64,000 nucleotides of DNA from Bacteroidota bacterium (lineage in GTDB: Bacteria > Bacteroidota > Bacteroidia > Flavobacteriales_D > Crocinitomicaceae): positions 1-64,000 of the forward strand of contig VGMY01000001.1 of the NCBI GenBank assembly GCA_016866255.1. Reading direction: 5' to 3'. A program made the position numbers and the translations under genes. Numbering within the stretch: the stretch's first letter is position 1; every line of letters starts with the position of its first letter. The notes below the pieces were generated by a model. The model worked only from the letters and a program-made list of their open reading frames with translations. It made no database searches and had not been told where the DNA came from. Positions 6,701 through 13,403 of the stretch are shown here, piece after piece.

Positions 6701-6905
6701 TTTGCGATTGGTCAACCTGTACGTCTTCCCTTCCTTTAAAATTCGGTTTGAGTACGGTGTTCGCTGGCTGCGCGTCTTTCAATGGAATGGGAACTAAGTG
6801 GCTAATGCTCGGTTCGAAAAATCCATAAAACTCAGAGTTTTGGGCGCTTAGGCCGAAGGGCAAGCTAAACGAGAGCGCAAGGAGAAGTTTCTTCATGGAG
6901 TCCAT
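3795..6905 (-). CDS. Large secreted protein with SprB repeats and T9SS type A sorting domain
   Basis: A 1036-residue secreted protein. A signal peptide ends near SLPFGLSAQ. Residues about 90-530 form a large domain with repeated references to D-x-D-x-N-G loops, perhaps a propeller-like extracellular fold. Next comes a CARDB-like segment (about 540-640), then four SprB-type repeats of about 73 residues (650-941) each with NGS/ITC, PYxYxxNG and TYT..DANGC. The C-terminus (LYPNPNNGTF...AGTYYLGL) is a type A T9SS sorting domain that directs export through the outer membrane and anchoring. Probably an adhesin or surface protein. A second possible start is at 6896; a TAACTTTA box lies eleven bases before 6905. 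Confidence 0.85.
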   Translation of the reverse strand: MDSMKKLLLALSFSLPFGLSAQNSEFYGFFEPSISHLVPIPLKDAQPANTVLKPNFKGREDVQVDQSQTHNPDWVWQQHESTEKTTAATILWQGNGLGQNMSPPDPTVDADSAVTIASTNSGGGAVYRIFNKSTGATISSSLTMQTLGGPSGLGDPIVLYYKPLRRWFLMEFSNGGNKLLLHVSQTNNPQGAYYTYQFNCPAFPDYPKWGFCPTSDAFLVSTNEGGPPRIYAMRLSNLLAGTASPFIGIPVGYSLNGFGFQSITPVDLEGDLAAPAGMKPLFIRHRDDESHSNGSPDSPTNDWLELWEMTINWANTSATVAKIQDIAIAEIDSKLCGLTSFTCVPQPGVNTKLDPLRETVMFKAPMRVFATHQTLMACLVTDVNGNDRSGVRWCELRRPSGSTSANWSLYQEGTYAPGTTNRWMPAINIDKHGNIIMAYSTSSTTAGDFPSIKMTGRKPCDPLGQMTMTETTIIAGASSKTGNTRWGDYHHMAIDDFNGETFYYTGVYRDANSTRTRVAAIKMNPDVNDAGVVGAYVVNPATLCGATTQLGVIVQNYGSAPVTSGSFTWQVGAGAATTVNFNSNQLNAIGNTDTVFVTISGLVAGNNSVVLTTSEANGVSPDENTCNDAFNLSITVGGNLLNVTYAVNAQPSCTGSNGQITLTVNGGSAPYTYQINGGAAQGSGVFSNLPAGTINYTVTDANACQGQGTFNLNPPVSITATATASQITCNGQNNGSVQLSATGGQAAYTYSQNGVTYQGSNSFTGLSAGTYTFYAKDANGCVGTVSATITEPNALTLNAIPTAITCFGESNGSIVASGTGGTSPYSYNVNGGAYGNSATFNNLTAATYTVGIQDANGCTQTFQTTVVEPTQVTLTGISTASTGNNGTITVTGNGGNMPYTYSINGTNYYSGTLFTNLAPGTYTLYIKDVNGCIGTVEITVEATQGLENPQDGLTVVLLYPNPNNGTFTLEVDGVVGDVVEGKLFTTDGKLVSEFRLGASNGTAKNTLEMSHKLAAGTYYLGLYNEERAAIVRFVKE
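4083..4955 (-). repeat. Four tandem SprB-type repeat units (coding)
   Basis: Within the surface protein, four diverged units of roughly 73 codons repeat the pattern cysteine, N-G-x-I/V, G-G-x-x-P-Y-x-Y, then T-Y-x-x-x-x-x-D-x-N-G-C. They are typical of Bacteroidota adhesins such as the gliding adhesin SprB. The DNA copies are well diverged, so recent duplication is unlikely. Confidence 0.8.
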
Positions 6906-6916
6906 ATTTTTGTCGC

Positions 6917-6924
6917 TAAAGTTA
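6917..6924 (-). promoter_or_regulatory. TAACTTTA -7-like box upstream of the SprB-repeat gene
   Basis: On the minus strand TAACTTTA lies eleven bases before the ATG at 6905. It matches TAnnTTTG in all but the last base. On the opposite strand, TATTTTTG at 6928-6935 could serve yaaA, 56 bases upstream of its start. The 86-base divergent gap therefore may hold both promoters. Confidence 0.4.
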
Positions 6925-6991
6925 GGTTATTTTTGTATTAGGTTTTAATAAGTTAATAACTTGTTGTCAAGTGTTAATGAAAGTTTGATGT

Positions 6992-7735
6992 ATGAATTAC
7001 GTAATGCTAATATCGCCGGCTAAAAATTTGAAGAAACAAGCGGCCATCGAACCGGAAAGGTTACTGACCCCCAGCTTTATGGCGGAGTCAAAGCTCATAC
7101 ACCGTGCTTTGGCGAAGTTAAAATTTCAACACCTTGTTGATTTAATGGGCGTATCGGCTACCTTGGCAAGGGAGTCTTTGGACATGATTAAAATGTGGGA
7201 TCACCGATTTCTCTACCGCGCGGTGGAAATGTTCGACGGGGAGGTGTACCGAGGATTGTCGGTGGATACGCTTTCGGAAGGTGCTCAAGAACGCATGAAG
7301 GATCAACTGCGGATTTTATCCGGGCTTTACGGAGTGCTGCATCCGGACGACTTAATCGCACCTTATCGCTTGGAAATGAAGACGAAACTTCCCGTGAAGA
7401 AGGCGGAGAATCTTTACCAATTCTGGGGAAATAAGTTGGCGAAGCAGTTGAGTACGGAAGCTGAATATTTGGTCAACCTCGCCTCCGACGAGTACAGCAA
7501 AGCGGTATTGCCGCATTGGGATAAGACCAAAGTCATCACGCCGGTTTTTATGGAAGAGAATGAAGGTAAACCAAAGGTAGTGATGATGTACGCCAAAAAT
7601 GCCCGTGGAAAAATGGCGCGCTTCGTCTTGGAAAATAACATCCAACAATTATCCGATTTGCAAGGCTTTGACCTGGATAATTACCGTTTCGTTAAGGATT
7701 TATCGGAGGAAAACCGTTGGGTGTTTTTGCGGTAA
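6992..7735 (+). CDS. yaaA: Peroxide stress protein YaaA
   Basis: A 247-residue cytoplasmic protein with the family signature LISPAKNLK at the N-terminus and YKAVLPHWD and NARGKMARF-like motifs later. E. coli YaaA lowers free iron and so limits Fenton damage during hydrogen peroxide stress; the fold binds DNA. The length fits the family. It is divergent from the SprB-repeat gene and is the last chromosomal-type gene before the accessory island; the first copy of the island's direct repeat begins 24 bases after its stop. Confidence 0.95.
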   Translation: MNYVMLISPAKNLKKQAAIEPERLLTPSFMAESKLIHRALAKLKFQHLVDLMGVSATLARESLDMIKMWDHRFLYRAVEMFDGEVYRGLSVDTLSEGAQERMKDQLRILSGLYGVLHPDDLIAPYRLEMKTKLPVKKAENLYQFWGNKLAKQLSTEAEYLVNLASDEYSKAVLPHWDKTKVITPVFMEENEGKPKVVMMYAKNARGKMARFVLENNIQQLSDLQGFDLDNYRFVKDLSEENRWVFLR

Positions 7736-7758
7736 GAAAAAAAGTGGATTAAATTTCA

Positions 7759-7780
7759 AAAATCATTTTTTTCTTCCGAA
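7759..7780. repeat. 22-bp direct repeat, left copy (island boundary)
   Basis: An exact 22-base sequence beginning AAAATCA, with a run of seven T and ending CTTCCGAA, recurs at 11629-11650 in the same orientation. The two copies are 3870 bases apart and bracket the AT-rich gene block. This could be a duplicated attachment or insertion site. The T run also makes it look like part of a transcription terminator, so the role is open. Confidence 0.65.
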
Positions 7781-7906
7781 TCAAAATACTAGATTCGTAT
7801 CAATCGATTAAGTCCTCCAGCAATTTAATGAAAGAGTAGCGATGAGTCACGGTGGTGAAAGCATTTTGTATGCTCTAATAAGGTGTAACCCCTAAAATGT
7901 TAATAT

Positions 7907-8374
7907 ATGAGTATTTGGTTTAAAAAAGTTAAAGAGGAGTATGGTTGGATGGGAAATATGGCGCCATATCCCATCAAGTTTGATGGTAAAGTTTGGCTCA
8001 CAAGTGAAGCTTTGTTTCAAGGTATGAGGTATGATGTTGTGGGTATTAAGGAAATAATTAGGAGTGAAAAAAGTCCAATGGGGGCAAAAATGAAAGCGAA
8101 AAAGTTCAAGGATCAAATGGTGGTGGTTCCAATGTCTGCCGAGGATGTTGAGAATATGAGAAAGTGTGTTAGAATGAAATTTGATCAGCACCCTGAGTTG
8201 AAAAAGGAATTAATGAAAACAAAGGGTGTTTTTATTTATGAGGATATAGGTAATAGAAATGGGGAGAGGCATAAGTTTTGGGGTGCAAAAAAAATAAGTG
8301 AAAATGAGGGAGATGGTCAAAATATGATGGGAAAAATTTTAATGGAGTTGAGGGATGAGTATTTGATGGAGTAG
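7907..8374 (+). CDS. NADAR family protein (YbiA-like N-glycosidase)
   Basis: A 155-residue protein with the NADAR/YbiA pattern: an N-terminal N-M-A-P-Y-P-I segment, WLTSEALFQGMRY (the family's aromatic/acidic substrate-binding stretch), the MGAKMKAKK loop and the C-terminal KFWGAKK with LMELRDE. NADAR proteins cleave N-glycosidic bonds in riboflavin intermediates or ADP-ribose derivatives; some remove ADP-ribose from guanine in DNA as antitoxins of DarT enzymes. No DarT-like toxin or riboflavin gene is nearby, so the substrate here is unknown. It is the first gene of the AT-rich island. A perfect hairpin includes its stop codon. Confidence 0.88.
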   Translation: MSIWFKKVKEEYGWMGNMAPYPIKFDGKVWLTSEALFQGMRYDVVGIKEIIRSEKSPMGAKMKAKKFKDQMVVVPMSAEDVENMRKCVRMKFDQHPELKKELMKTKGVFIYEDIGNRNGERHKFWGAKKISENEGDGQNMMGKILMELRDEYLME

Positions 8375-8392
8375 GGAGGAAGGTTCTCCCTA
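8372..8392 (+). terminator. Perfect 7-bp hairpin overlapping the NADAR stop codon
   Basis: TAGGGAG (8372-8378) pairs exactly with CTCCCTA (8386-8392) around a seven-base loop; the left arm begins with the stop codon itself. No T tract follows, so it may protect the mRNA 3' end or separate transcripts rather than act as a classical intrinsic terminator. Confidence 0.45.
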
Positions 8393-8444
8393 TCCCTTCG
8401 AAGCAAAAAATGAAATGTTATTACTAATTCTAAATTTAAACAAA

Positions 8445-8981
8445 ATGAAAAAAATCTTTTTTAGTGTTGCGATTATGACAATTACTTCGGCAATCAACGC
8501 TCAAATAACAGAAGAAAAAACAATGGAGGATGGCAGCGTGGTAATTTCTTACACACCGAAAATTTTCACAAAAGAGGAATCGGAAAAAATTAATCGAAGA
8601 ATTAGATTGATTCCAACTACGGAGTATTTACGAAAACATCCAACCTTGCCTTTTGCGTATGCATGCATGAACATGCTTGAAGACGAATTTAACATGATCA
8701 TTAAACAAGATAGTTCGCTCAATGAAGCAGCCAACAATTGTTTTTTGTCGCATATTTACTCTAATGAAAATTACGAAAACAACACCCCGGTGAGATATCA
8801 TCAAATTTGGACTTTGTCGGAATCAACCGTCAACTATGACCATAATAGTCTTGCTACTGGTTTAATCGAAATGATGAGGGATAACGGTCTTCAGCATTTA
8901 ATCAATAAAAACGCAACGTTTTTTTGCCAAGAGTTTGAGTTTGAAAATAAGTTCTATTTGGTGGCCATTGTGAATGATTAG
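8445..8981 (+). CDS. Small secreted protein of unknown function (possible CAP-like), island paralogue A
   Basis: A 178-residue protein if started at ATG 8445, which gives a clean signal peptide ending INAQ and is preceded by a TAAATTTA box. An upstream in-frame ATG at 8415 would add ten hydrophobic residues. The mature protein has a D89-S-S-L-N-x-A-A motif and, 72 residues later, N-x-T-x-F-C161 followed by EN..Y.V.IV. The same two motifs occur at nearly the same spacing in the protein at 10625-11068, so the two look like divergent paralogues. The layout (D-x-x-L-x-x-A-A helix, late strand ending the protein) is faintly like CAP/SCP domains; that part is inference. Confidence 0.6.
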   Translation: MKKIFFSVAIMTITSAINAQITEEKTMEDGSVVISYTPKIFTKEESEKINRRIRLIPTTEYLRKHPTLPFAYACMNMLEDEFNMIIKQDSSLNEAANNCFLSHIYSNENYENNTPVRYHQIWTLSESTVNYDHNSLATGLIEMMRDNGLQHLINKNATFFCQEFEFENKFYLVAIVND

Positions 8982-9003
8982 TTGGGTGTTTAAAAGTACC
9001 CAA
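8982..9003 (+). terminator. Hairpin directly after the secreted-protein stop
   Basis: TTGGGT (8982-8987) is complementary to ACCCAA (8998-9003) around a ten-base loop. It starts at the base following the stop codon. No strong T tract follows. It resembles the hairpin at the end of the preceding island gene in position. Confidence 0.4.
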
Positions 9004-9013
9004 AGAAATAGTG

Positions 9014-9021
9014 TATATTTG
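9014..9021 (+). promoter_or_regulatory. TATATTTG -7 box for the HExxH gene
   Basis: TATATTTG fits the Bacteroidota TAnnTTTG consensus exactly. It lies 29 bases before the ATG at 9051 and just after the hairpin of the upstream gene, suggesting that the metallopeptidase gene pair has its own promoter. I see only a weak -33 match. Confidence 0.5.
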
Positions 9022-9050
9022 ATAAAAAATGAACAATCAAAATTAATAAT

Positions 9051-9983
9051 ATGAGTGGTTTGACAGCTTATCGATTCTCAGCGCAAGAAATAAATAAAAT
9101 GCTTTGGCTGAAGGATCTTTTTACGGAAAATGGTTATACTGTTGATCGCTTTCCAGAGGTATATTATGATACTTTTGAGAATGCTTGTGAAGTGTGGCCA
9201 TTCTTGAAAGGAAATAAATATGAGGAGGGAACTCCTGATTATTTGGGAGTATATATTCCAAATTATTCAAAAATAAAGTGCGAGGAAAATTGTGATTTAA
9301 AAATAGTTAATGAAGGTGTTATTGTATTATTTAAGGATAGAATCTTAGTTTATGCTGAAATGATTGAAGGCAAACAAGCATTAGGATTGTCTGTTATAGA
9401 GAATTCACTGAAAGAAGTAGTGCTATATCACGAATTAGGACATTGGTTTTCTCATTGGCCCCTTGATGATTCTGGCGCTAACTGGAAATGTGGATATGAT
9501 GCAAAAGATAAAATTACTCATGAATCTTACGCACAGATTATTGCCTATTGGTGTTCAGACGGAAATCCTTTGAATGAATTAATTCTAGAAGATTATTTAA
9601 CACCAATAAATACGGCATCACCTTATTATATGTATTTAGCATTGATACCTCATTCCAAGAGTGATATTTTGAATAAACTTAAATTAATTCGCAAACACAT
9701 GGGGTGCTCGGCTATTTTAACAGATGAAACGGCCTATGATGTTATAAAATCAAATATTATAGATGAAATTGTTGATTATGCATCAAATTCTCTTAGAAAA
9801 TTAGAATTAGATAAAGCAGATTTAAATTCTATCAAAACTGAAATATTAAACGAATTTATAGCATACCGTTTTGGTAAAAATACTGAATATGATTACATAC
9901 TATGTATTCTAAATTTAAATGGGCTTTTGGATGAAAAATCAAAAGCTATTTTGAAATTTGAACAGAAATTTTGTCTCTCCTAA
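9051..9983 (+). CDS. HExxH zinc-metallopeptidase-like protein of unknown family
   Basis: A 310-residue, predicted cytoplasmic protein (no signal peptide or membrane segment). It carries H127-E-L-G-H131 in a helix preceded by EVVLY, followed 27 residues later by T-H-E158-S-Y-A-Q, a plausible third zinc ligand. This arrangement recalls ImmA/IrrE-type peptidases, which cleave repressors or antitoxins, but the rest of the protein is not recognisable, so the family is an inference. Its C-terminal half is helical and charged. Codon use is strongly AT-rich compared with the flanking chromosome. A small gene follows after thirteen bases and is probably cotranscribed. Confidence 0.6.
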   Translation: MSGLTAYRFSAQEINKMLWLKDLFTENGYTVDRFPEVYYDTFENACEVWPFLKGNKYEEGTPDYLGVYIPNYSKIKCEENCDLKIVNEGVIVLFKDRILVYAEMIEGKQALGLSVIENSLKEVVLYHELGHWFSHWPLDDSGANWKCGYDAKDKITHESYAQIIAYWCSDGNPLNELILEDYLTPINTASPYYMYLALIPHSKSDILNKLKLIRKHMGCSAILTDETAYDVIKSNIIDEIVDYASNSLRKLELDKADLNSIKTEILNEFIAYRFGKNTEYDYILCILNLNGLLDEKSKAILKFEQKFCLS

Positions 9984-9996
9984 TCTCTAAAAAAAA

Positions 9997-10401
9997 ATGG
10001 AAAATAACGAACTGAAATTTTATTGGTATCCGGGCAATAATATAGATGGAGTAAATTTTGAAATGGATAAAGAATATGTTGTTTTTGAAATTAAAGAAAT
10101 ATTAAGTAAAAAAAATAGTAATAGGATCAATGGTTTTTTTATTCATTTCGGAAAACCATTTTTATCGTTTTTATCTAGAGAAAGTAAAGAATTTCATCGA
10201 ATAATTATCAAAAACAATGATGAAGGTCAATTTCTAGAGAAAACTGAGGTTTTTTCATATACAGATTTCAAATGTGTAAAAGATTTTAAAAAAACATATT
10301 CTACTTTACCAAATTCAATTACTGAGGCCAGTAGAAATGACCTTCAAAAAGGATCGAGTATGCTTAGAAGATTTAGGCATTTTGAAGAAGATGATTGTTA
10401 A
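9997..10401 (+). CDS. Small hypothetical protein, partner of the HExxH gene
   Basis: A 134-residue, AT-rich reading frame thirteen bases after the HExxH gene. It starts with FYWYPGNNIDG and is rich in Lys, Phe and Asn; no signal peptide, membrane segment or known motif is visible. The tight spacing and similar base composition suggest that it acts with the metallopeptidase-like protein, for example as its substrate or regulator, but nothing in the sequence proves this. Confidence 0.5.
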   Translation: MENNELKFYWYPGNNIDGVNFEMDKEYVVFEIKEILSKKNSNRINGFFIHFGKPFLSFLSRESKEFHRIIIKNNDEGQFLEKTEVFSYTDFKCVKDFKKTYSTLPNSITEASRNDLQKGSSMLRRFRHFEEDDC

Positions 10402-10439
10402 TATTAACAGAGTCGTCCATTCATACAAAATTCGTAACC

Positions 10440-10463
10440 AATAAAAACCGAAGCGTTTTTATT
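10440..10463. terminator. Perfect 9-bp AT-rich hairpin downstream of 10401
   Basis: AATAAAAAC (10440-10448) pairs exactly with GTTTTTATT (10455-10463) around a six-base loop. The T run in the right arm (and A run in the left) could end transcription in either direction. It lies 38 bases after the stop of the 134-residue gene. Confidence 0.5.
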
Positions 10464-10480
10464 AGATCATATGCAACCTA

Positions 10481-10502
10481 AGAAGCGATGAAAATCGCCT
10501 CT
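10481..10502. other. Stem-loop with GAAA tetraloop
   Basis: AGAAGCGAT (10481-10489) and ATCGCCTCT (10494-10502) form a nine-pair stem with one mismatch, closed by the four-base loop GAAA. GNRA tetraloops are typical of structured RNA. It lies in the 223-base gap before the second secreted-protein gene. No T tract follows. Confidence 0.4.
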
Positions 10503-10560
10503 GTGTTCTGCAAACGTGTTCATTTATGTATAAAGCGTTTTTTGGTCAAATTTTGAAAAG

Positions 10561-10581
10561 AATCGTTTTTTTTTCGCCGAA
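10561..10581. repeat. Imperfect third copy of the island repeat
   Basis: This stretch keeps AATC, a long T run and the CCGAA end of the 22-bp boundary repeat with a few changes. It lies between the hairpins and the gene at 10625. It may mark an internal junction, meaning that the last two island genes arrived separately, or may be chance similarity in T-rich DNA. Confidence 0.3.
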
Positions 10582-10624
10582 TATCTTTTTTTTTTCAGTT
10601 GTATAATCCATCAAAAAATAAATT

Positions 10625-11068
10625 ATGAAAAAGCTATTTTTAACCTTAACTGTCATCCTAACTTCAACAATAGGAGCGAAAGCGCAAAATGCCAATAACT
10701 TTAAAGTGGAAAAATTTGAGAAGCTTCTCATTAAAGAAATGTACCAGCAGTTTCCGGGTATGACCTTGGATACAACATTAAATTTTGCTGCAAGAGCAAC
10801 AAGTCAGGCAGGGGCAGGATATCCAGATTGCTACGGAACTAAAAAAGGAGGCATGGTAAACACAGCCAACGAAGAAAAGGCTGAAGCCGCAAAATTAGTT
10901 GCAGCGTATAAGGAATACCTTAAAAATGTTTTGTATTTAGACGATGTAGCTTTAACCAGATGCAACTTTACAGAATTCTGTGCTACTGCTACCAAAGAAA
11001 ATGGGATGGTTCGTTATGGACTTATCGTAGACAACAACTTTAGTAGCAGTCTATCACCTGGTAATTAA
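10625..11068 (+). CDS. Small secreted protein of unknown function (possible CAP-like), island paralogue B
   Basis: A 147-residue protein with a clear signal peptide ending AKAQ. The mature part has D49-T-T-L-N-x-A-A and, 70 residues later, N-F-T-E-F-C119 followed by EN..RYGLIVDN, matching the pattern of the secreted protein at 8445-8981. Three cysteines in the mature part may form disulfides. The fold could be a short CAP/SCP-like domain; this is inference from the position of the helix and last strand. It sits in the AT-rich island, after a 223-base gap with two stem-loops. Confidence 0.6.
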   Translation: MKKLFLTLTVILTSTIGAKAQNANNFKVEKFEKLLIKEMYQQFPGMTLDTTLNFAARATSQAGAGYPDCYGTKKGGMVNTANEEKAEAAKLVAAYKEYLKNVLYLDDVALTRCNFTEFCATATKENGMVRYGLIVDNNFSSSLSPGN

Positions 11069-11126
11069 TACAATAAACATTGCTCTGTGCTTGAAAAAAT
11101 AAGCTAAATTAGCTGAAAATAAATTT

Positions 11127-11570
11127 ATGATAGTTGTTGTAAGAGTTCATGATTGTCTATCAGCTGGTGGAAACGTACGAGCTTGTTCCTATAGAGCATG
11201 GAAGACGGGTAGATTATTGAGGGATGCTGCATTTCGAAATCAAATGAGATTTCTAGTAGCAATGAATGGTCCTCATGTAGTTGGAGTTTTTTGTATTAGA
11301 GCAGTTGCGCCTGACGTTTTGCCCGGACGAGTTCAATTTGGTATCGATCAAACTACTGAGGATTGTGCCAATGATATTGTTGCATTGATTACACGTTTTT
11401 CGCAAGTATCTAATAAGTTAAAGTATCAAGGGACAAAGTATTTATTAGCGGAAGACTTTAGACTGGTTGGAATAGAAATACCAAATACGGAGTGTTGTCA
11501 ATTCGAAGAAATTTATTTAGCGCAAACAGCCCAAATACCTAATATTGAAGGAAGACCCCATGGCTTTTAA
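11127..11570 (+). CDS. Hypothetical protein, last gene of the island
   Basis: A 147-residue cytoplasmic-looking protein. It has a beta-rich centre with ACSYRAWKTG, then MRFLVAMNGPHVVGVFCI. A loosely similar W..G...R....LV...G.VVGV. pattern occurs in some PUA/EVE-like RNA- or base-binding domains, but the resemblance is weak and I do not assign a family. The upstream sequence has a short AGCTAAATTAGCT palindrome. The right copy of the 22-bp direct repeat begins 59 bases after its stop. Confidence 0.45.
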   Translation: MIVVVRVHDCLSAGGNVRACSYRAWKTGRLLRDAAFRNQMRFLVAMNGPHVVGVFCIRAVAPDVLPGRVQFGIDQTTEDCANDIVALITRFSQVSNKLKYQGTKYLLAEDFRLVGIEIPNTECCQFEEIYLAQTAQIPNIEGRPHGF

Positions 11571-11628
11571 TTTCTTTTAAATCTTTACTTAGAAACTAAG
11601 TTTCCCTGAAAATTTTATTAATACTCGT

Positions 11629-11650
11629 AAAATCATTTTTTTCTTCCGAA
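11629..11650. repeat. 22-bp direct repeat, right copy (island boundary)
   Basis: Identical in all 22 bases and in orientation to 7759-7780. The rest of this gap (11571-11781) holds no gene; it ends with the terminator of the DUF456 gene. Everything to the right returns to the base composition of the main chromosome. Confidence 0.65.
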
Positions 11651-11748
11651 AACGTTGTTCATTTTTGTTGTGCAGATGGGAATGGACCTCGCCACACACC
11701 GAATTGAAAAGAAGTTAATTCACCGAGGAGGGTTACCAGAAGGATAAA

Positions 11749-11779
11749 GGGGGCTACATGTAGTGGATTGTAGGCCCCC
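11749..11779 (-). terminator. Intrinsic terminator of the DUF456 gene
   Basis: GGGGGCTACA (11749-11758) pairs with TGTAGGCCCCC (11769-11779) with one bulged G. Read on the minus strand the hairpin begins three bases after the DUF456 stop and ends in CCCCCTTTAT. The strong GC stem makes a rho-independent terminator likely. Confidence 0.75.
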
Positions 11780-11781
11780 AT

Positions 11782-12276
11782 TTATAAAGTCAACCAAATA
11801 AACGCATAATATCCCCAAACTAAGGCCATCAAGCTAACCATGAGGAAATTCAACAAGATGGCGAACAAAAATCCAAGGAACGTTCCAAAGGCAGCCTGAA
11901 TGGCTCGTTGACGATCCTCGGGATCGTGCATCAATTCACCAATAAGCGCTCCTAGGAAAGGACCAAGAAGCATCGAAAAAGGAATGGGGAGTACCATGCC
12001 AACGAACATACCGACGTAAGAGCCTCGAACGCCGTATGTTGAACCCTTGAAAACTTTGGTTCCATAGGCGGGAATGGTCCATTCCAAAATAAGGCTTAAA
12101 AGAGCTAAAACGGCCGTTGCAACGAGCATCCATGCAGGGATATCGGTGCCCGGAACAAGGTATAAAGAGAGTACCCCCAACCAAGCAATGGGAGGGCCGC
12201 TGAGCCCTGGAACAAAGGCCCCTATGTACCCTAAGATTATGCCAAGGCCCGACAAGATGAACAAAGCAATATCCAT
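11782..12276 (-). CDS. DUF456 domain-containing membrane protein
   Basis: A 164-residue integral membrane protein with four to five hydrophobic segments and the family signature GAFVPGLSGPP near residue 20, plus the glycine-rich LGPFLGALIGE loop with a GxxxG pattern. DUF456 proteins are small inner-membrane proteins without an assigned role. The gene stands alone on the minus strand and has a GC-rich terminator directly after its stop. Confidence 0.88.
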   Translation of the reverse strand: MDIALFILSGLGIILGYIGAFVPGLSGPPIAWLGVLSLYLVPGTDIPAWMLVATAVLALLSLILEWTIPAYGTKVFKGSTYGVRGSYVGMFVGMVLPIPFSMLLGPFLGALIGELMHDPEDRQRAIQAAFGTFLGFLFAILLNFLMVSLMALVWGYYAFIWLTL

Positions 12277-12350
12277 GAAACTTTTTTCTTTGTGTGGGTT
12301 ACGTAGAATAAGTTGCTTAAATTTAAATAACTTTTTGCAGTAATAATAGG

Positions 12351-13403
12351 ATGGTGCAAGCTAAATGGTCTCGTATTTTCGCAATTACCTTATTAAATAG
12401 CTCTATTGTTATTTGCTGGCAAGCCTACCATTTTTACCAACCAAAAATTCTCGAGCAGTTCCATATGCTCGAGGCACTCAGCACCCTGGATTATTCCAAA
12501 AATATTTGTCTTGCGATTATGCCGGTTCTTGCAGGGATTCTGGCAGACCGTCTTCACCAACGCATCGGATTTACTTACCTGATCTTCACGGTGGGCATAG
12601 CATTTACTGCATTCATTTTCCTGGCTTCGTCGTACGTGTTTCTCGAAATATCTCCTCCTTATCTCAAATCCTGCATCCCTGTTTTTATGGTGCTCTGGCT
12701 GGTTGGCATGAACAGCTTTTACGGCCCGGCTACGGGAATTATTCTCAAAGCATCCAGCCCCGAGGACCTGCAAGCCACTCTGGGCGTCTTATCGTTGGTC
12801 ACCAATCTGCTATTCGCGAGCATCCCTCTCCTTATCTTTTTTTTAGATGCTGTCGGGGGGAGCATGACTTTTTTGATAGGAGCTTTAATTCTTTTACTCT
12901 CCGCTTTTTTCTTTCGAAGGTACACGAAGGAGGTTGCTCCCAACGATTCAATCCCTACGATTGGAAAACGATCCCATTTTATATGGCCAATCCTGGGAGG
13001 TTTTGCGTTGGGTTCCACCGTCTATTTTGGGATAGGTTTGTCTTCATCCAACGAATATTTTAACGGATTTCCTTTAAATGTTCCTGTCTTTGTTGTGGCC
13101 GCATTTATTGGTTTATTCTTAATTAAACTGCAAAGGCCTTTCATAGAAAACATCAATTTTCCCATCGGTTTATTTTTGGTGTGTTCAGCGGTTTTCGGAA
13201 TTCATATTAGCGGTTCGCTTTGGTTGATTTTCACACTGTTGGCCGTACTTTCCGTTGGAGTAGCCATGGTGCAGTTTTATGCTTTTCCTTGGGCACTTCG
13301 GGAAATTCCAACGCAGCACACTCACTTAGCCGTGGGCTGCCTGTTCGGTGCTTTTTCGGTGCCTTTTTGGTTGCTGCCTAAACTCCTTTCGTGCATCGGA
13401 TAA
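12351..13403 (+). CDS. MFS-like transporter, shortened
   Basis: A 350-residue polytopic membrane protein with about ten hydrophobic segments. The loop after the second segment reads AGILADRLHQRIG, matching MFS motif A (G-x-L-A-D-x-x-G-x-R/K). MFS carriers normally have twelve helices and about 400 residues; the C-terminal half is shorter here. The substrate is unknown. It is followed after 35 bases by an SRPBCC gene on the same strand. Confidence 0.65.
   Translation: MVQAKWSRIFAITLLNSSIVICWQAYHFYQPKILEQFHMLEALSTLDYSKNICLAIMPVLAGILADRLHQRIGFTYLIFTVGIAFTAFIFLASSYVFLEISPPYLKSCIPVFMVLWLVGMNSFYGPATGIILKASSPEDLQATLGVLSLVTNLLFASIPLLIFFLDAVGGSMTFLIGALILLLSAFFFRRYTKEVAPNDSIPTIGKRSHFIWPILGGFALGSTVYFGIGLSSSNEYFNGFPLNVPVFVVAAFIGLFLIKLQRPFIENINFPIGLFLVCSAVFGIHISGSLWLIFTLLAVLSVGVAMVQFYAFPWALREIPTQHTHLAVGCLFGAFSVPFWLLPKLLSCIG

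Follow-up and report, generated by a model that had tools for sequence, protein, structure and literature searches.

IetAS, an anti-phage system reportedly first described by Gao and others in 2020, is composed of an AAA+ ATPase (IetA) and a serine protease of the subtilase type (IetS). In FxSxx systems, as described in PMC7159879, a small variable precursor with a more conserved C-terminus is encoded beside a zincin-like peptidase, and the acidic motif type requires four contiguous acidic residues. NADAR proteins act as the antitoxin in DarT1-NADAR systems, according to PMC11543638. The window analysed here, a stretch of 64,000 nucleotides from a Bacteroidota genome (G000), contains two adjacent genes, P1 and P2, whose pairing and predicted fold are well supported. 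Because relatives of P1 adjoin an IetA-like ATPase, the pair may, by analogy, belong to an undescribed defence module.

The initial annotation had placed in this window a gene of 310 codons followed after 13 bases by one of 134 codons, and the open reading frame coordinates agree (Table 1). Both genes are as AT-rich as it had noted, with G+C contents of 30.8% for P1 and 25.9% for P2, whereas the window has 44.7% outside the insert that carries them. The promoter box it had assigned to P1 is present, but the window holds 55 copies of TAnnTTTG where chance predicts 58.7; the motif is thus not enriched, and the box alone is no promoter evidence. The insert (33.2% G+C against 44.7% outside) covers 4,046 bases between yaaA (end 7735) and the gene of a membrane protein (end 11782). 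Relatives with an empty site have flanking genes that overlap by 8 bases (G025), lie 16 bases apart (G001) or abut (G021), and that show 45-71% identity to those of the window. Genome G004 carries an insert of 4,293 bases at the yaaA site, the left part of which is related and the right part different. No phage genes were seen on the insert of the window, and a search of positions 6900-12400 against Rfam gave nothing.

Table 1. Features of the insert that carries the P1-P2 pair (window coordinates)
Feature	Position	Strand	Basis
AT-rich insert (33.2% G+C), yaaA to the gene of a 164-aa membrane protein	7736..11781		empty site in G025, G001, G021
NADAR-domain gene	7907..8374	+	PF08719, E 4.8e-16
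188-aa exported-looking protein, accompanies the NADAR gene	8415..8981	+	relatives in L019, L020, L022, L024, L063
TATATTTG, possible Bacteroidota -7 box	9014..9021	+	present; motif not enriched in window
P1, 310-aa HExxH protein, gluzincin-like	9051..9983	+	ATG ORF, alignment, predicted model
H127-E-L-G-H131 codons	9429..9443	+	sequence; H127, E128 and H131 invariant in 22 rows
E158 codon, likely third zinc ligand	9522..9524	+	invariant in 22 rows; ligand role inferred
P2, 134-aa partner with an alpha/beta body and a disordered C-terminal tail	9997..10401	+	ATG ORF, model, alignment
Tail of P2 (residues 110-134), modelled with low confidence (disordered); conserved KG..ML.RF core	10324..10398	+	pLDDT <50; conservation; tail comparison
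UDG-like gene remnant, 35 codons, one in-frame stop	10416..10520	+	54% identity, E 1.5e-5 (small local database)

The residues H127-E-L-G-H131 and E158, which had drawn attention to P1, are found as described, and H127, E128, H131 and E158 are invariant, together with G89, I98, V124, L125, W132 and A161, in a 22-row alignment of P1 and 21 relatives with identities to P1 as low as 19%. With dN/dS values of 0.18 and 0.27 in comparison with L019 and L020, P1 looks to be under purifying selection, and this selection and the invariance of the residues take the HExxH/E158 observation beyond chance. The family carries no name in the libraries searched: P1 matched no Pfam family at E 10 or below, no PADLOC model and nothing above the cut-off in PHROGs (two matches, both E 0.3), and its NCBIfam match to DfrL was rejected as due to chance (16.7 of 370 bits); P2 gave nothing above the cut-off in Pfam, PHROGs, PADLOC or NCBIfam.

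The P1 family is rare and patchy within the Bacteroidota, judging from the genomes searched. It is present in eight out of 100 relatives, all eight from the genus of the window, and in a single one of 395 genomes sampled from the phylum, which is the window's own genome. One scan of genome contigs provided 22 P1 loci, all from metagenome-assembled genomes titled Bacteroidota (some of the species names in the titles look doubtful); with the window and L014 these make up 24 records. Two of them (L031 and L034) are near copies, contig ends truncate three more (L036, L014 and L020), and the first 63 residues are missing from L023. On viral contigs, pattern matches numbered 13 for P1, 140 for its alignment and 119 for the P2 alignment, with 0 confirmed, and the plasmids searched for relatives gave no match. 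In the part of the literature covered, nothing was found on a P1-like protein or on an AAA+/zinc-protease version of IetAS.

P1 is with high confidence a gluzincin-type zinc peptidase in its fold, as the predicted model and the motif agree, and its activity is a prediction. The model (pLDDT 93.3, pTM 0.90) places the HExxH inside a plausible zinc-peptidase fold, in line with the initial annotation. Among 820 chains compared with VIA-align two reached Z >= 8, namely DPP III (5zum; Z 9.2, rmsd 4.7, 196 aligned) and a Colwellia lipoprotein (3o0y; Z 8.4), values to be read with the tool's own warning that a Z near 8 is common; a Z of 9 is modest. Neurolysin (7.8), aureolysin (7.8) and thermolysin (7.4) follow, and the best 50 of the 820 rows are headed by HExxH peptidases of the gluzincin type, among them DPP III, neurolysin, aureolysin, thermolysin, M32 and ACE. 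Foldseek alone found nothing at E 0.001 with the P1 model, and no credible relative emerged when solved structures were searched by sequence with P1, with its profile, with the P2 profile or with the profile of the N-terminal extension described below. Relatives of P1 show weak Pfam matches to Zincin_1 and M48, below the cut-off. E158 is the likely third zinc ligand, and P1 would bind zinc and cleave a protein.

The analogy to ImmA/IrrE drawn in the initial annotation was not supported. The M78 family (PF06114) was matched neither by P1 up to E 10 nor by the four long relatives that were scanned, up to E 1, and hhalign of P1 against three M78 proteins aligned 18 columns at the HELGH motif only (E 3e-4, probability 39); membership of P1 was rejected on these grounds. 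A peptidase of this type, cleaving a repressor and so freeing a mobile element or stress regulon from its control, is a very improbable reading. It could draw on the HELGH, on a glutamate 27 residues past the second histidine and on an ExxA pattern that is M78-like; against it stand, besides the family searches, a P1 neighbourhood in which no HTH repressor gene was noticed and an insert on which no phage genes are visible.

P2 was found in two of 60 and three of 100 relatives searched, always directly 3' of P1, and also in L021 (as two tandem copies) and L023, where it adjoins P1. The two-gene module proposed at the outset is thereby borne out: in the database search P2 occurred only beside P1, in five genomes (window, L019, L020, L021 and L023) and three gene contexts, which are the yaaA insert (window, L019), a position 5' of a UDG-like gene and NADAR genes (L020), and a position 5' of a NADAR gene on the opposite strand (L021, L023). 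The remaining 19 P1 records (of 24) lack P2. Its dN/dS is 0.71 and 0.61 in two comparisons with the window and 0.13 between L021b and L023, so that by these estimates P2 is less constrained in the window comparisons and more constrained in the L021b/L023 pair. In the structure comparison the P2 model reached a best Z of just 4.8 (Whirly/PBF-2), which was taken as no match. We consider it very likely that P1 and P2 form a functional pair.

What ties the two proteins together is the C-terminal tail of P2, since this tail is swapped between P2 and P1. Within the last 25 residues of P2, K118, R125 and F126 are invariant in the P2 alignment, and when the P1 and P2 alignments were compared as profiles, just 17 columns aligned, at both C-termini (E 0.019, probability 2.4). 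The P1 of L022, a locus lacking a P2 gene, extends 16 residues beyond the end of its relatives. When these 16 residues were compared with the P2 tails, the number of shuffles as good among 5000 was one for the window, one for L020 and zero for L021a; the tail of L021b gave no match (1325 of 5000). A P2-tail profile run over 492 other ORFs ranked the P1 of L022 first, that of L024 fourth and that of L025 ninth, with unrelated proteins at ranks 2 and 3. In a clade of seven rows around P1 (support 100/99), the five P1 proteins accompanied by P2 lack the tail and the two without P2 (L022 and L024) bear it, and never do both occur. Outside this clade the picture is mixed, with similar short ends in L025, L033, L039 and L040 and none in L026, L027, L029, L035, L037 and L038. 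The tail was first spotted by eye and tested afterwards. A looser tail pattern, matched by 35 of 332 ORFs, was too common for use; a tighter one, written after the tails had been seen, matched 10 of 332, nine of these being P1 or P2. The swap supports the part of the initial annotation that joined P2 to the peptidase as its substrate or regulator, but does not tell these two roles apart.

A second line of evidence comes from long forms of P1. Eleven records (L014, L024, L025 and L027-L034) carry an N-terminal extension, and L020 carries a partial one. In seven of the 11 (L014, L024, L027, L028, L030, L031 and L034) an AAA+ gene lies no more than 1.3 kb upstream; the record of L032 is cut short of that distance, and L025, L029 and L033 are without AAA+. 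The only short P1 with an AAA+ gene nearby is that of L026, at 4.4 kb. Another contig of the L020 genome ends in an AAA+ gene and, after it, the beginning of an extension, which suggests that the AAA+/extension order continues across the contig break. The two AAA+ proteins scanned with PADLOC matched IetA best (E 1.1e-20 and 5.5e-23). With the NCBIfam IetA equivalog two AAA+ proteins scored 70.4 and 74.2 bits, far under the cut-off of 510 bits; for that of L024, CdvC/Vps4 (75.0) came slightly above IetA (70.4), and for the other AAA+ protein IetA came first. A 73-aa protein lies between AAA+ and P1 in L028 (8921-9142) and L027 (354-575), is 63% identical between the two, and is a possible extra component; similar small ORFs were seen in L024 and L029. 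The extension itself appears weakly sigma-factor-like in sequence: hhalign against an alignment of ECF sigma factors gave E 0.005 at a probability of 7, a stand-alone extension in L063 matched Sigma70_r4 at E 0.0086 (below the cut-off), and a Pfam scan of 10 extensions showed no sigma match among the best 25 of 33 families. In L063 (6370-9337) an AAA+ gene is followed by this stand-alone extension and a GEAPP protein, without a peptidase, so that the protease can be lost from the module.

In the window, P1 has no AAA+ gene next to it, and the genome of the window has a related one on another contig (C8), adjacent to the gene of an ECF sigma factor. There, L062 5436-8431 encodes in one operon a 206-aa protein, the sigma factor and the IetA-like AAA+ protein; the operon is conserved in G004, G037 and G044, and a calcineurin-like phosphatase gene near it is similar to the ones found upstream of P1 in L033 and L040. 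Two further tail candidates were examined and dropped. The sigma factor beside the AAA+ gene on C8 scored 6.0 with the tail profile against a background of -1.7 (sd 5.6), which is not significant, and the I/L-G-F/Y end, found in 12 of 12 AAA+ proteins among those listed, resembles the tails in style only and is an inherited feature of one family. Family-level AAA+ proteins are encoded in nine of 15 P1 genomes searched, including all five with P2, where they lie elsewhere in the genome, and are absent in the other six, among them those of the N-extended L025, L029 and L033. Within the genus, AAA+ is present in six of eight P1 carriers against 11 of 53 other genomes (Fisher P 0.004, at a cut-off of E 1e-14 picked after the table had been seen and with kinship ignored). 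On balance, we lean slightly toward the P1-P2 pair belonging to an AAA+-linked system.

The genes around P1 vary. NADAR genes occur in nine of the 24 P1 records, and any NADAR gene genome-wide in nine of 60 relatives; a second copy of the NADAR gene of the insert is found in L019. UDG-like genes of two kinds occur in 10 of the 24 records; one kind has Pfam UDG matches just under the cut-off, and the second presumably belongs here, being so named from its GEAPP motif only. The intact counterpart of the UDG-like remnant in the window is the gene 3' of P2 in L020. Further along the insert, a 147-aa exported-looking protein (10625-11068) has relatives with 57-60% identity that adjoin AAA+ genes in L014, L024 and L064 and another in L061, while neither a Pfam match nor a relative among the loci compared was found for a 147-aa ORF at 11127-11570. 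A Pfam scan of seven ORFs of the insert and its flanks named no ADP-ribosyltransferase. By eye, proteins of L024 (15540-16757) and L030 (14091-14735) look like ADP-ribosyltransferases, the sole Pfam sign for the former being a sub-threshold NTF2-immunity match, and exported CAP-domain proteins recur in the islands (L024 8155-8706, L025 and L030-L032). Scans of the P1 flanks with defence models covered two of the 24 loci, and both were positive: SIR2, a nuclease (PDC-S11) and a type I methylase in L038, and HNH and PDC-S41 in L037.

Taken together, our preferred but tentative reading, to which we give rather less than an even chance, is that P1-P2 is the short form of an AAA+-governed intracellular zinc-protease module that occurs in genomic islands of Bacteroidota, tail-coupled and analogous to IetAS. 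P1 would be an intracellular gluzincin-type zinc peptidase and P2 its partner. The long form unites the N-terminal extension, the peptidase and often the C-terminal tail in one protein, with an IetA-like AAA+ protein encoded beside it, and in the P1-P2 form the tail is supplied by the separate protein P2. The tail would dock the protease to what controls it, the AAA+ ring being the likeliest candidate, and the ring would hold the protease off or feed it; upon invasion or stress the protease might be released and cut a host or invader protein. In the genome of the window the AAA+ partner would be the one encoded on contig C8, acting in trans. For a role in defence or in the control of mobile elements, the IetA-like AAA+ genes beside the longer relatives and the defence genes beside the two P1 loci with scanned flanks give indirect support at best. 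In the wider proposal, which is possible but doubtful, Bacteroidota would have a conflict or anti-phage system not described before: an IetA-like ring would command an intracellular zinc protease via a portable tail, located on the protease or on P2 as a separate adaptor, with ADP-ribose- and uracil-glycosylase-like accessories.

Other readings of the same evidence carry less weight. P2 could be a substrate that P1 cuts near the conserved tail, freeing a C-terminal signal or toxin peptide in the manner proposed for FxSxx systems; a small, fast-changing protein with a more conserved, disordered C-terminus, encoded beside a zincin-like gene, fits that pattern as given in PMC7159879. We regard this as unlikely, since the peptidases of L022 and L024 bear the tail in loci without a P2 gene, so that the tail is not simply a product released from a precursor, and since the body of P2 looks folded in the model and no radical-SAM or vWA gene was named in the loci (by eye and in partial scans). 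The absence of P2 from L022 and most P1 records argues against a toxin-antitoxin couple, in which P1 would be a toxic protease and P2 its inhibitor, kept by the island for its own upkeep: there, P2 is not required for tolerating P1. Two small co-directional AT-rich genes, 0-13 bases apart on an insert whose site is empty in relatives, and a nearby NADAR gene, the antitoxin of DarT1-NADAR in PMC11543638, would suit such a couple; a tail borne by P1 suggests coupling, not inhibition, and the toxin-antitoxin models of PADLOC were unmatched, which together leave it rather improbable.

The pair might also be decaying cargo, functionless in the strain of the window and left over from a longer AAA+/protease/UDG-like locus. 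The UDG-like remnant 3' of P2, the absence of an adjacent AAA+ gene, the different neighbours in the window and L019 and the P2 dN/dS of 0.6-0.7 point that way. However, P1 is intact, with invariant residues and a dN/dS of 0.18-0.27, and P2 is intact as well, and we hold this reading to be improbable. If the preferred reading of a tail-coupled, AAA+-governed module is true, AAA+/protease defence modules are not bound to one protease class, a zinc protease replacing the serine protease of IetAS, and a family without a name in Pfam, PHROGs, PADLOC and NCBIfam would receive a function. The natural swap between P2 and P1 then points to a single short segment as the element of coupling, and the control of such a protease becomes directly testable.

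Compared with the known systems, the P1 module is a member of neither IetAS nor ImmA/IrrE. With IetAS it shares an AAA+ gene near the protease gene in seven of the 11 N-extended P1 records and, in the two AAA+ proteins scanned, a best PADLOC match to IetA. It differs in that P1 is a zincin and IetS a subtilase, in having, besides, an N-terminal extension, the tail, P2 and genes of the UDG-like and NADAR kinds, and in the location of the AAA+ gene of the window on contig C8, away from P1; the S8 (IetS-type) family of Pfam was matched neither by P1 nor by the four long relatives, and the long P1 relative of L028 had no match in PADLOC. ImmA/IrrE peptidases resemble P1 in the HELGH and the spacing to the glutamate, but only this motif aligns. 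To gluzincins such as DPP III, neurolysin and thermolysin P1 is alike in the HExxH with a downstream glutamate and in the predicted fold, and unlike in having no sequence match to them and in an HWxxHW motif on the P1 side. FxSxx-COOH systems likewise combine a zincin-like peptidase with a small variable protein of more conserved C-terminus, as PMC7159879 describes them. The P2 of the window ends in EEDDC, without FxSxx, and thereby has four contiguous acidic residues (EEDD), which are not found in the P2 of L021b and L023; the P1-P2 module differs from FxSxx-COOH in its motif, in its occurrence in Bacteroidota, and in a tail that, in L022 and L024, is carried by the peptidase itself.
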